DNA from: Halobacteriovorax sp. GB3
Lineage (GTDB): Bacteria > Bdellovibrionota > Bacteriovoracia > Bacteriovoracales > Bacteriovoracaceae
Length of the DNA stretch: 64,000 nt
Assembly: GCF_028649655.1 (NCBI RefSeq)
Contig: NZ_JAQSLN010000001.1
Location: 434,001 to 498,000, forward strand
Direction: 5' to 3'
Part shown: in pieces, positions 17,251 to 21,994 of the stretch
Layout of the letters: every line of letters begins with the position of its first letter
Numbering within the stretch: position 1 is the stretch's first letter
Notes under the pieces: model-generated
Told to the model about the DNA's origin: nothing
The model's database searches: none
Seen by the model: the letters and a program-made list of their open reading frames with translations, nothing else
Program-made: the position numbers and the translations under genes

Positions 17251-18156
17251 TTAGTAATGCCAAGGAAATTTAGAAAAGTCTTGATCTCTTTTTTCGAGGA
17301 AGGCATCTCTTCCTTCTTTTGCTTCATCTGTAGCGTAGGCTAGGCGAGTTGCTTCTCCAGCAAAGAGTTGCTGTCCTACCATTCCATCATCAGTGAGGTT
17401 GAAACCAAACTTGAGCATTCTCATGGCCGTTGGAGATTTTGAGTTCATTTCTTTTGCCCAGCGAAGAGCTTCATTTTCTAACTCTTTATGTTCGACAACT
17501 TTATTAACCATTCCCATTTGGAAAGATTCTTCGGCCGAGTAGTTAAATCCGCAAAAGAAAATTTCTCTCGCTCTTTTTTGGCCAACCATTTTTGCAAGAT
17601 AGGCCGAACCATAACCAGAGTCAAAGCTTGCTACATCAGGATCTGTTTGTTTAAAGATTGCATGTTCTTTAGAGGCAATTGTTAAGTCGCAAACAACATG
17701 AAGAGAGTGTCCTCCTCCTACGGCCCAACCTGGAACGACGGCAACGACAACTTTAGGCATAAAGCGAATGAGTCTTTGAACTTCTAAAATGTGAAGGCGT
17801 CCAAGCTTTGCTGGATCGACAACACCTTCGCTTCCTTCGTACTTGTATCCATCTTTTCCACGAATCCTTTGATCTCCACCAGCACAGAAGGCCCATCCTC
17901 CATCTTTAGCAGAAGGCCCATTCCCTGTTAAAAGAACAACTCCTACATCAGAGGTCATACGTGCGTGCTCAAGTGCGCGATAGAGCTCATCAACAGTCTT
18001 AGGGCGAAAGGAATTTCTGCACTCAGGTCTGTTAAAAGCGATTCTCACAGTCCCTTGGTCTTTAGCTCTGTGGTATGTAATATCAGTGAATTCTTCAAAA
18101 CCTGGAACTTCATTCCATAGCTCTGGATTAAAAATATCTGAAACTTGATTGGTCAT
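17251..18156 (-). CDS. menB: 1,4-dihydroxy-2-naphthoyl-CoA synthase MenB
   Basis: 301-residue crotonase-fold enzyme that closes the second ring in menaquinone synthesis. It reads like MenB throughout: RIAFNRPECRNSFRP, GGWAFCAGGDQRIRG, PGWAVGGGHSLHVVCDL, the catalytic-region QTDPDVASFDSGYGSAYL and C-terminal EKRDQDFSKFPWHY. That Tyr-ending tail is specific to MenB over other crotonases. No other men gene is near. Its presence implies menaquinone-based respiration. Confidence 0.96.
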   Translation of the reverse strand: MTNQVSDIFNPELWNEVPGFEEFTDITYHRAKDQGTVRIAFNRPECRNSFRPKTVDELYRALEHARMTSDVGVVLLTGNGPSAKDGGWAFCAGGDQRIRGKDGYKYEGSEGVVDPAKLGRLHILEVQRLIRFMPKVVVAVVPGWAVGGGHSLHVVCDLTIASKEHAIFKQTDPDVASFDSGYGSAYLAKMVGQKRAREIFFCGFNYSAEESFQMGMVNKVVEHKELENEALRWAKEMNSKSPTAMRMLKFGFNLTDDGMVGQQLFAGEATRLAYATDEAKEGRDAFLEKRDQDFSKFPWHY

Positions 18157-18432: not shown

Positions 18433-18681
18433 ATGGCACTTTATATCGTTAAAGACGTTATTGTAGATCATTACAGAGATGAAATTAGTTCAGCTTACAG
18501 TACAAGTAGTCATTATGGAGTTTTAAATTCAGGTGAATTTGATCATGCCATCACTGAGTTGTGGAAGGCCGCAAGAGTTGACGGTCTTACAAGAGATTTT
18601 TTCAACACATTGGTTGAGTACGAAGTGAAGGCCCATGGTGTTGAACCTGAAGTAACTACCTTTTTACAACAGGCCGCTTAA
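18433..18681 (+). CDS. small helical protein of unknown function
   Basis: 82-residue acidic, soluble, mainly helical protein without signal peptide, Cys or recognisable motif. The clean RBS (AAGGGGAAGAGG), a possible TATAAT promoter upstream, and codon use like the neighbours argue it is real. Its last 26 bp overlap the 3' end of the convergent cytochrome-b-like gene. Confidence 0.55.
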   Translation: MALYIVKDVIVDHYRDEISSAYSTSSHYGVLNSGEFDHAITELWKAARVDGLTRDFFNTLVEYEVKAHGVEPEVTTFLQQAA

Positions 18682-19096
18682 GTTTTTGTCCCATGAATTG
18701 GTGGTAGATAAAGAGAATGGTCCATAGGATTGATGATCCAATGTGGCTCCATTTCCAAAGGCTTGTTGTCCAAGATTCGACAGAACTTTGAAGTAGATAC
18801 CCCGAAAATGTCATCAAAATAAAAAGGGCGGTCATAACGAGGCCGCTTCTTCTTAGTTTTTGATAGCCGCAGACAATTCGAAACCAAATGTGGTCTTGCC
18901 ATATCACTCCTATACAAAAAATAAGTAGGGGAGATAAAATGATATGCAAGTGGTGAAAGTGAGCTTGAAAGGGATGAGACTGTAGTCCGTAGAGACCTTG
19001 AACTTTCATGAAGTACTTAAACACTCCATAGAGAAGCCCAGTGAGTATGCTCGCGTAGGAGCTATAAATAAGGGCATTCTTCTGTCTTGGACTCAT
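18656..19096 (-). CDS. four-helix membrane protein, candidate heme-b cytochrome (DUF4405-like)
   Basis: 146 residues with about four membrane helices (about 12-30, 50-66, 84-103, 116-134). Histidines sit in or beside helices: HFHHLH (46-51), His118 in WSHIG and His132 in YHQF. This spacing suggests heme coordination as in small membrane cytochromes b, but the family match is by pattern only. The ATG overlaps the stop of the FMN-binding gene by 4 bases, so the pair is coupled. It could carry electrons between quinol and the extracytoplasmic flavoprotein. Confidence 0.5.
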   Translation of the reverse strand: MSPRQKNALIYSSYASILTGLLYGVFKYFMKVQGLYGLQSHPFQAHFHHLHIILSPLLIFCIGVIWQDHIWFRIVCGYQKLRRSGLVMTALFILMTFSGYLLQSSVESWTTSLWKWSHIGSSILWTILFIYHQFMGQKLKRPVVKR

Positions 19097-19647
19097 TTCT
19101 TGTAGGCAACCTTGTCGATTGCGAGAATGCGTCTCGCGCTAATCACTGTTGATTTCGATGTGAGAGTTGCACCACTCACGACATCAATTGATTTCTTTAA
19201 ATGAAGATCTCCATTTAAAATTTTGCTTTTAAACAGATCGAGCCACCTTTTTGGTGCTTTATATTCCACAGGCTCTTGGAAATTGAGAGTTCTAATTCTT
19301 TCAATGGACTGATTTTTGACAGCGATAAGCATTGATTGAGTGTGTGTTCGTACAACTTGCGAATCAATATAGGCGTGAATCATTTCCTTTTCACATTGAA
19401 CGAGAAAACTCATAACGATTCCCGTATCAATTTTTAGCTCTGAAAGTGAACTTGCTTTTTGTAATTCCTCTTCTGAGAGATAAATCATTTTCTTTTCAAT
19501 TTTACATTTAGGAAAATGGCCTTGCATAACATCGTTTAATGTTGCTCCACCTGCAAAAGAGAGGTTTATTGATAATAAAAGAGGGAGGAGTAAAACTCCT
19601 CCCTTATAAATCGAAGAATATGTTTTCAATTTAATTAGAAATGCCAT
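19093..19647 (-). CDS. exported FMN-binding (flavinylated) protein, RnfG/NqrC-like domain
   Basis: 184 residues with an N-terminal signal or anchor (about 17-32, ending SFAGG). The C-terminus contains VVSGATLTSKSTVISARRIL, the FMN-binding domain motif in which ApbE attaches FMN to the Thr (here Thr161). The protein would sit in the periplasm as a one- or two-electron carrier. Its start overlaps the porin gene's end by 13 bp and its stop overlaps the cytochrome-like gene's start, so the three are one operon. Its redox partner or substrate is unknown. Confidence 0.72.
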   Translation of the reverse strand: MAFLIKLKTYSSIYKGGVLLLPLLLSINLSFAGGATLNDVMQGHFPKCKIEKKMIYLSEEELQKASSLSELKIDTGIVMSFLVQCEKEMIHAYIDSQVVRTHTQSMLIAVKNQSIERIRTLNFQEPVEYKAPKRWLDLFKSKILNGDLHLKKSIDVVSGATLTSKSTVISARRILAIDKVAYKK

Positions 19648-20804
19648 CCCATACCTAGGTTGAATGAATCTCTACCAGTTTCAGCTTCATTTGTATTTTT
19701 AACATAATCAACTTTGAAAGTAATTCTGTCAATTGGCTTGAACTGAACACCGTAAGTGATATTTGTTACTTCTTGTGACTTGTTCTTAGTTACACCTGCT
19801 GGAACTTCTTCTTGAGTGTTGTAAGTTTCGTAACGAACAAATGGCATAATGGCCATGTCTGATCCAGACATTACATCATAACCAGCTTCAATGTAGTAAC
19901 CTTGCATTTTATCAGCAGCGCTTCCACCTTTTTGCTCATTAAGTTTCTTCCCATCAAGATCTGCCCAAGTGTAAAGAGCACGAGTCTTTAGACCTTTCCA
20001 CTGATACTCAGCGTGAAAGTCGAAGATATTGTGGCTAACACCAGAAACACCATTAAGTTTTCCAACGTATGCTGAAGCTCCAGCTACAAGACCTTGAAGA
20101 CCTGTATAGTCAACTCTTGCCACATAAGAGAAGTGATCAGCCGTTGCATTTGAAGCCTTTTGACGACCATCTCTAACACCATTCTCTCCAAAGTTTGAAG
20201 CAGAACCATCAAGCGAGTTCATGATGTAGAACTTGTAGTTAAAAGAAGAAAGCTTCCCATAAACACCAAGTCCGTGCTCTCTCCAAGTTGTTGGAAGAAT
20301 TTTATTTTCAATTTCTGGTCTGTTTACTGAAAAGAATGTTGTTGGCTCGTGTGTTTCATTGATCCAACCCATTGGTGTAAGAAGAACACCCGCTCTAAAG
20401 TTAAGAGCATCAGAGTGGTGGTAATCAAGGTGAGCAAATTCTAGATAAATTTTGTTAGCGTGCTCAATTTCGATTTCTGTGTTTAGAGTCCACTTCTCAT
20501 CGAATTTGTAACCAACGTAAAGAATATTTCTTAGCGCATCAGCTGTTGCTGGTTGAGAAGAGCGATCACCCTTTTCATTTTCTCCACTTTTATTAGTGTA
20601 AGTAATCTCTCCGTATCCTCCAATCGATAGACCGTTTCCAAGATTGTAAACTTTGTCTTTTGAAAGACCTTGAGTTTGTGCTCCTCCGTGACGAAGTTTA
20701 GCAACTTCTGAAGCGAGAACGTCAATTTTCTTTTCTAGTTCAGTAACTGTGGCACCCATCGCGACAGCTGGAACAAGAGCTAGTGCTGCTAGTGTCTTTT
20801 TCAT
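19635..20804 (-). CDS. outer-membrane porin-like beta-barrel protein
   Basis: 389 residues. It has a Sec signal peptide KKTLAALALVPAVAMGA, a short coiled-coil (VTELEKKIDVLASEVAKL) as seen at the N-terminus of many porins, then alternating amphipathic strands ending NLGMGWHF with the C-terminal Phe recognised by the Bam complex. LRAGVLLTPMGWINETHEP-like text recalls porins of the phosphate-selective O/P type. ATG 20804 follows AAGGAGTTCAAC, so the upstream in-frame extension is not real. First gene of the operon, with a palindrome on its promoter. Confidence 0.82.
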   Translation of the reverse strand: MKKTLAALALVPAVAMGATVTELEKKIDVLASEVAKLRHGGAQTQGLSKDKVYNLGNGLSIGGYGEITYTNKSGENEKGDRSSQPATADALRNILYVGYKFDEKWTLNTEIEIEHANKIYLEFAHLDYHHSDALNFRAGVLLTPMGWINETHEPTTFFSVNRPEIENKILPTTWREHGLGVYGKLSSFNYKFYIMNSLDGSASNFGENGVRDGRQKASNATADHFSYVARVDYTGLQGLVAGASAYVGKLNGVSGVSHNIFDFHAEYQWKGLKTRALYTWADLDGKKLNEQKGGSAADKMQGYYIEAGYDVMSGSDMAIMPFVRYETYNTQEEVPAGVTKNKSQEVTNITYGVQFKPIDRITFKVDYVKNTNEAETGRDSFNLGMGWHF

Positions 20805-20836
20805 GTTGAACTCCTTATTAACATGGTACTGGTCTA

Positions 20837-20867
20837 ATACTAAATAAAATGTTTGACCTGTCAAACA
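20837..20867 (-). promoter_or_regulatory. porin operon promoter overlapped by an 8-2-8 palindromic operator
   Basis: On the minus strand TTGACA (20864-20859) and TAGTAT (20842-20837) are 16 bp apart, ending 32 bp before the porin ATG. The perfect palindrome TGTTTGAC-CT-GTCAAACA (20850-20867) covers the -35 box. A dimeric repressor bound here would block the porin operon and could also affect the divergent ABC ATPase gene. The regulator is unknown; the half-site spacing does not match Fur, LexA or FNR/CRP. Confidence 0.6.
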
Positions 20868-20947: not shown

Positions 20948-21994
20948 ATGGATATATTACGCATAGAAAAACTCTTGAAAACATATGATGAAAAGTCGTT
21001 AACCACTGTTAATGAAGTAAGCTTTGCCCTTAAAAAAGGGGAGATCCTCTCTATTATCGGTCCCTCTGGAACGGGAAAGAGTACCTTGGTTAAAATGATT
21101 GCGGGTATCGTTGGCCCTAAGTCGGGCAAGATGTTCTTTTATGATACCGAGCTGCCATATGAAAAAGAGCATGAGAAGATCGCCTATGTTCCGCAAGAGC
21201 TCTCATTAGATAATGATAAAAATATTTTTGATAATATAAAAACGAAAGTGGCCCACCTTAATGAAGATGAAATTCATGTGAAGGTCAGAGATATGATTGA
21301 AGTTTTTGGTCTTCAGTATAAAGACTTTAAAAGTCCAACAGAGCTCTCAACGGGACAAAAGCAAAGGGCCGAGATGGCCAAGGCGCTCGTGAATTCTCCT
21401 GAAGTTTTAATTCTCGATGAGCCCTTTTCGAATTTAGATAAAAGTCTTCGTGAACAATTAAAAGCTGAGCTATTTGAAATTCTAGAAGAGAGAGAAATAA
21501 GCTGTATTATGGTGACTCACGACTTGGATGATGCCTTTTCTGGTTCCGATCGCGTGATGGTGATGGCCGATGGTATTGTTAAGCAATTGGCTTCGCCGAG
21601 AGAAATCTATCAAAAACCAGCATGTAGTTATGTTGCCCGCTTTAGTGGTGCCGTCAATCTTCTGGCTGGCCCTATTACCCCTCTTGAAAATGGACTCTAT
21701 CACATAAAGAATAGTTTTGGAGAGTTTGAAGCGAAGGCCCATCAAGAAGCTCTTTCACAAGCTAAGTTTGCCTATCTCGTCGTTCGCCCAGAAATGACTG
21801 AATTGAATAATAAGGGAAAATACAAAGGAACAGTCTTAAAGAAGCGCTTCTATGGACCCTATGTTGATCTTTGGCTGAAGACTGTTGATCAAAATAAATT
21901 TATCATTCGCGTTCCTTATGATCAGGAGCAGGAGATCGGTAAAACTATTCGCTTTGATATAAAAGCGAAAGATCTCTATCTACTCATGATTTAA
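20948..21994 (+). CDS. ABC transporter ATPase, FbpC/PotA-like with TOBE domain
   Basis: 348-residue nucleotide-binding subunit with Walker A GPSGTGKST, signature LSTGQKQRAEMAKAL, Walker B VLILDEPFSNLD and the H-loop VTHDL. A C-terminal regulatory region (about 235-348) resembles TOBE_2 of iron(III), spermidine or molybdate importers. No permease or binding-protein gene is adjacent, so it is an orphan subunit here. It is divergent from the porin operon across 143 bp that contain the palindrome, which suggests shared control. Confidence 0.82.
   Translation: MDILRIEKLLKTYDEKSLTTVNEVSFALKKGEILSIIGPSGTGKSTLVKMIAGIVGPKSGKMFFYDTELPYEKEHEKIAYVPQELSLDNDKNIFDNIKTKVAHLNEDEIHVKVRDMIEVFGLQYKDFKSPTELSTGQKQRAEMAKALVNSPEVLILDEPFSNLDKSLREQLKAELFEILEEREISCIMVTHDLDDAFSGSDRVMVMADGIVKQLASPREIYQKPACSYVARFSGAVNLLAGPITPLENGLYHIKNSFGEFEAKAHQEALSQAKFAYLVVRPEMTELNNKGKYKGTVLKKRFYGPYVDLWLKTVDQNKFIIRVPYDQEQEIGKTIRFDIKAKDLYLLMI

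Follow-up and report, generated by a model that had tools for sequence, protein, structure and literature searches.

Little is known of how bacteria that lack obvious siderophore systems take ferric iron through two membranes, and the operon described here would offer a testable answer. It occupies positions 18656–20804, on the minus strand, of a 64,000-nucleotide stretch of the Halobacteriovorax sp. GB3 genome (hereafter called the window), and its three genes encode a porin, an FMN_bind protein and a four-helix membrane protein. The question is what these three proteins do together. An initial annotation had drawn an electron chain that starts from quinol and reaches the flavoprotein by way of cytochrome b, the substrate entering through the porin; this chain fits all of the findings given below, in which heme, flavinylation and iron reduction are predictions. 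We consider it likely that the three products constitute a cell-envelope system that acquires iron by reducing it.

The operon and its products

The locus contains the following features (window coordinates).

18656–19096, minus strand: membrane protein gene (146 aa; predicted diheme b cytochrome)
19093–19647, minus strand: gene of the FMN_bind protein (184 aa; exported)
19635–20804, minus strand: porin gene (389 aa; ATG start at 20804, with the ribosome-binding site AAGGAG)
20850–20867, no strand assigned: palindromic operator TGTTTGACAGGTCAAACA, a perfect inverted repeat, 45 bp before the ATG of the porin gene
20948–21994, strand opposite to the operon: divergent ABC ATPase gene; the intergenic region with the operator is common to this gene and the operon

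The head-to-tail overlaps of 13 and 4 bp described in the initial annotation were confirmed from the three minus-strand open reading frames. The TTG start listed for the porin frame (20906) was rejected as an over-extension, and the ATG at 20804 behind AAGGAG is preferred. The gene downstream of the ABC ATPase gene encodes a DUF2452 protein, not a permease. Two genes away from the operon, at 17251–18156 of the window, is a gene for an enoyl-CoA hydratase family protein that resembles MenB of menaquinone synthesis; its proximity may be chance.

The middle product, earlier called an FMN-binding protein, matches Pfam PF04205 (FMN_bind) at 24.5 bits, above the cut-off of 22, and the same Pfam entry is matched by 10 of 10 family members of this protein. 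Behind its signal sequence it does carry the SGAT motif, in the form VSGATL (S158-G159-A160-T161). Among 67 homologues, G159 of the VSGAT at 157–161 is invariant, and A160 and T161 are found in at least 95%; covalent attachment of FMN to T161 is predicted from this motif. The genome contains one apbE (309 bits), situated near the nqr genes, whose product NqrC is the second FMN_bind protein detected in it. A single-protein scan of genome contigs with the FMN protein gave no matches, and the alignment of the FMN protein contains no segment of sufficient conservation to serve as a scan query. The two cysteines of the FMN protein are conserved within the family and at 44–55% across phyla, a frequency so low that they were dropped as a general redox feature.

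The last product was modelled as four long helices (pLDDT 96), and the histidines that had been noticed in its membrane helices are located in two of the four predicted: helix 2 contains H51 and H69, and helix 4 contains H118 and H132. All of these are invariant in 75 of 75 homologues. Because helices 2 and 4 are parallel in direction, H51/H118 and H69/H132 would lie at matching depths, and the charge pattern, which places both ends of the protein inside, would put H51/H118 toward the periplasm. The four histidines in the model fit two stacked bis-histidine heme sites, and the protein is probably a diheme b cytochrome with the pairs H51/H118 and H69/H132. The top PDB matches of the model (ranks 1–3) are to hydrogenase-1 cytochrome b (probability 0.89–0.97, TM to query 0.53–0.63, with a weak E-value of about 0.3), and weak matches to Ni_hydr_CYTB were also seen. 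DUF4405 (PF14358) is matched weakly by six of nine family members, and the 146-aa protein itself stays below the cut-off (15.7 bits vs 26.7). Neither the window protein nor its family members showed a PepSY match.

The porin has a signal peptide, an N-terminal helix and, in the AlphaFold model (pLDDT 90), a predicted 16-stranded barrel, in which a 32-residue loop (residues about 143–174) joins strands 5 and 6. In classical porins, the strand 5–6 loop (L3) forms the constriction. PDB structure matches of the model are to trimeric porins of the OmpC/OmpU/OprP type (E-value about 1e-11 to 1e-13), and both the 16-stranded barrel and the long strand 5–6 loop of 16-strand trimeric porins are present in it. 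At the sequence level, no Pfam porin family matches the window porin, other family members gave single weak BBP2/Porin_O_P matches, and PDB sequence searches with the porin and cytochrome profiles returned chance matches only. The residues N108, E110, E112, E114, H115, E122, E150, H152, E153, H264, R211 and R214 are invariant in 61 homologues. E150, H152 and E153 sit in the strand 5–6 loop, which by the strand order of the model is the position of the constriction loop L3, and N108, E110, E112 and E114 occupy alternate positions of strand 3, so that all of them would be on one face. These invariant charged residues suggest that the pore is selective, its lining being assigned from the modelled strand order.

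Conservation and neighbourhood of the trio

A profile of the FMN protein was run over 129 genomes of the family and found clear FMN_bind relatives in about 25. The distribution of the module is patchy, since it is missing from the one genome of the same genus. Throughout the family loci (twenty fetched regions and the window), the porin, FMN and cytochrome genes adjoin in nearly every region (in one, the cytochrome gene lies at the porin end of the trio), and the flanks share almost nothing. That the trio remains intact while the flanks differ argues for a functional unit, and rules out the ABC ATPase as a fixed partner. The initial annotation had brought in this divergent ATPase as an FbpC-like partner of the module. 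It is not adjacent to the module in relatives and was rejected as a part of the system; moreover, its best NCBIfam matches are of the PotA/UgpC/WtpC type, all under the cut-off, and are not specifically FbpC-like.

The porin profile, searched against one genome per species, recovered more than 560 relatives, and the best 80 loci in other genomes were read in six frames with the three profiles. The order porin-FMN-cytochrome exists in 67 of these best 80 loci (some of the others stop at a contig edge), and the FMN gene is in the flanks of 77. The loci belong to Acidobacteriota, Gemmatimonadota, Planctomycetota, Verrucomicrobia, Myxococcota, Zixibacteria and other phyla. Constant within the family amid wholly different flanks, and kept in the same order in most of the cross-phylum loci, the grouping is not due to chance, and the proposed check of gene order in related genomes came out in favor of a three-gene system. 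With the FMN_bind match above its cut-off, an apbE in the genome and the order conserved, none of the three results that the initial annotation had named as contradicting it was obtained. Within the fetched flanks of the best 80 porin loci, apbE is found in 55, with few exceptions on the same strand; for feoB the count is nine, eight of them on the same strand.

The cytochrome was detected in 31 of the 291 Bdellovibrionota genomes sampled. ApbE is present in all 31, vs 125 of the 291 overall (Fisher P = 4e-13, a descriptive value that ignores relatedness). The co-occurrence with iron genes that had been suggested was not seen for FeoB, which shows no enrichment (FeoB_C in 26 of the 31 cytochrome-bearing genomes vs 233 of the 291 overall); five of the 31 have no FeoB_C match, so the coupling to FeoB is not strict. 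A ferritin-like gene adjoins the module in three family loci, and feoAB is divergent from the porin gene in one further genome. Two genomes of another family have an operon of ApbE, CCP_MauG, a Fur-family regulator, porin, FMN protein and cytochrome, in this order.

Variants of the module were also recognized. Several Bdellovibrionota genomes (Bdellovibrio-like, L210–L215) contain a parallel form, DUF6662 barrel-FMN_bind-ApbE-cytochrome, in which the DUF6662 protein is taken as a different outer-membrane barrel. At other loci (L216, L217, L218 and L220), the place of the cytochrome behind porin and FMN_bind is taken by two small membrane proteins, and ApbE is encoded close by; the small proteins have a few conserved histidines, and the pair that was scanned gave no convincing Pfam match. 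In short, the variants keep a barrel, a flavoprotein and a membrane carrier, and exchange single parts.

An operator sequence common to the module and feoAB

The operator is an 18-bp palindrome, TGTTTGA-N4-TCAAACA, with 14 fixed bases. At least 12 of the 14 precede the porin gene in 14 of the 21 family loci (window included), a count that is partly circular because the palindrome was first noticed in the window operon and then tested. The feoAB genes were not used in defining the motif, and their count is more independent: sites with at least 12 of the 14 bases occur in 12 of 18 family regions upstream of feoAB, whereas 400-bp stretches drawn at random from the window hold one in 0.4% of cases. 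The feo site in this genome, TGTTTGAATAATAAAACT, has 12 of the 14. Perfect 16-bp cores in this genome adjoin genes for TonB, CCP_MauG and several proteins without an assigned role. Ten relatives contain 35 perfect cores, vs 6 for the reversed control pattern, and these cores adjoin CCP_MauG, imelysin, ChaN, PepSY_TM, HiPIP and Ni-SOD genes; a ferritin-like gene is 318 bp from a perfect site in the locus of one relative. Some operator sites precede genes without an assigned function. Because the operator is common to the module, feoAB and iron-related genes, we read it as marking an iron-starvation regulon. The sites point to membership of the module in this regulon, for which an iron-responsive regulator is assumed.

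Two further observations concern the distribution of the sites. Some module promoters of relatives contain hybrid half-sites, and the operator also exists upstream of genes for secreted proteins of about 165–175 aa that are alike (L230 1565–2059, L268 2473–2991 and L277 1873–2394); the two of these proteins that were scanned had no Pfam match.

As to the regulator, a classical E. coli-type Fur box was searched for upstream of the porin and rejected, the best match being no better than those in shuffled sequences. Fur itself was also rejected. The genome yielded a single Fur-family gene (L284; G000:C3:1403606–1403950), which adjoins ABC-transporter ATPase and permease genes which, read from sequence, look like the ZnuCB type, and because of these znuCB-like neighbours its product is probably a zinc regulator (Zur). 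The genome also contains two DtxR-type regulator genes, and we list their products, as a lead only, as candidates for the protein that binds the operator. One of these two genes (L305, 1378–1914) has the palindrome TGTTAGGTATGCCTAACA just upstream (1930–1947), in a form that resembles the module operator.

Proposed function and related systems

The initial annotation had guessed at a metal complex as the substrate. As far as iron is concerned, the guess gains support from the operator common to feoAB and tonB, from the feoB, ferritin and Fur-family genes among the neighbours, and from the linkage to apbE. The trio would then work as follows. Under iron starvation, a repressor would leave the palindrome, and the operon would be expressed along with feoAB. 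Ferric iron, probably as small chelates, would enter the periplasm through the dedicated porin. The four-helix protein would draw electrons from the quinol pool onto its two stacked bis-histidine hemes and pass them to the covalently bound flavin, which ApbE would have attached to the exported protein at T161. This flavoprotein would reduce Fe(III) to Fe(II), and the Fe(II) would move into the cytoplasm via FeoB, or via another importer where FeoB is absent.

The same chain might instead pass quinol electrons to an acceptor admitted by the porin, as in Fe(III) respiration or with some other oxidant, for energy gain and not for uptake. The electron path would be identical, flavinylation systems have respiratory roles in other bacteria (PMC8238504), and CCP_MauG is found under the same operator and, in two genomes, within the operon itself. 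However, the operator is common to the assimilation genes feoAB, tonB, imelysin and ChaN, and multiheme cytochromes and catalytic reductase subunits are not recurrent among the module neighbours, so that a terminal branch of respiration seems unlikely. Release of iron from ferric siderophores imported by TonB systems, with the porin serving as the exit of the stripped siderophore or as a general diffusion pore, would agree with the tonB gene of this genome, which has the operator too, and with the described PepSY-type flavinylation clusters that include TonB receptors (PMC8238504). It seems quite unlikely, since no TonB receptor adjoins the module in the loci examined, the fixed partner is a porin and not a receptor, and the invariant charged residues of that porin suggest a selective pore.

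The constant pairing of porin and FMN protein, which persists in loci that lack the cytochrome or have another part in its place, would also be expected if the flavoprotein docked in the barrel and conducted electrons outward to extracellular acceptors, as in the MtrAB porin-cytochrome complexes. Barrels of the MtrB type, however, are much wider than a 16-strand barrel, and 16 strands, a long loop at the L3 position and matches of the OmpC/OprP type would leave a pore unable to accommodate a folded domain of some 16 kDa; we regard such a conduit as very improbable. Reductive iron acquisition is the reading that we prefer, and under it the trio would be a candidate for the envelope ferric reductase that supplies FeoB, for which no gene has been assigned in most phyla. 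This compact, widespread three-gene unit, whose control site is common with feoAB in one lineage, would be relevant to poorly studied groups, among them the Acidobacteriota, Gemmatimonadota, Planctomycetota and predatory Bdellovibrionota.

The statement of the initial annotation that no characterised three-gene system has this shape agrees with our search: no description of a porin, FMN_bind and cytochrome trio was found in the open-access papers covered, and the word porin is absent from the main texts of PMC8238504 and PMC11334425. Partial counterparts do exist. Iron transport has been linked to flavinylation in PepSY-type clusters (Meheust et al. 2021, PMC8238504), in which, as proposed here, an inner-membrane heme protein donates to a flavinylated periplasmic protein and there is a link to iron acquisition; however, the membrane protein of the present module is not of the PepSY type, and its outer-membrane partner is a porin, whereas theirs is a TonB receptor. 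DUF4405 cytochromes are linked to ApbE, and heme b has been shown for one member (Huang et al. 2024, PMC11334425), a result with which the heme binding proposed for the 146-aa protein agrees. Both are small membrane proteins with four conserved histidines and a link to apbE. The DUF4405 fold has six helices, whereas the model of the 146-aa protein has four long ones, and the latter, below the DUF4405 cut-off, is paired with FMN_bind and a porin. In the Nqr complex, the FMN_bind domain of NqrC is likewise flavinylated by ApbE, but that complex is a sodium-pumping NADH dehydrogenase with a cytoplasmic NADH donor and no porin.

Porins have also been connected with ferrous iron uptake. In E. coli, OmpC supplies iron to FeoB (PMC7315122); there too a porin feeds FeoB, but OmpC is a general porin and has no co-encoded envelope reductase. 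In Geobacter and Desulfuromonas, Fur-regulated porins predicted to be co-regulated with feoAB have been proposed to act in iron transport (PMC545781), and one of them is weakly similar to the OprP type, although no flavoprotein or cytochrome b partner was described. The present trio would thus add a dedicated porin to the flavinylation-based electron-transfer systems. It is conceivable, though rather doubtful, that siderophore-independent reductive iron uptake in Gram-negative bacteria has its own iron-selective channel, with a metal-selective constriction formed by E110/E112/E114/H115 and E150/H152/E153, and that pore, flavin reductase and cytochrome make up one unit transferable across many phyla. 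Such a unit would have a parallel in the reductase-plus-permease systems of fungi.
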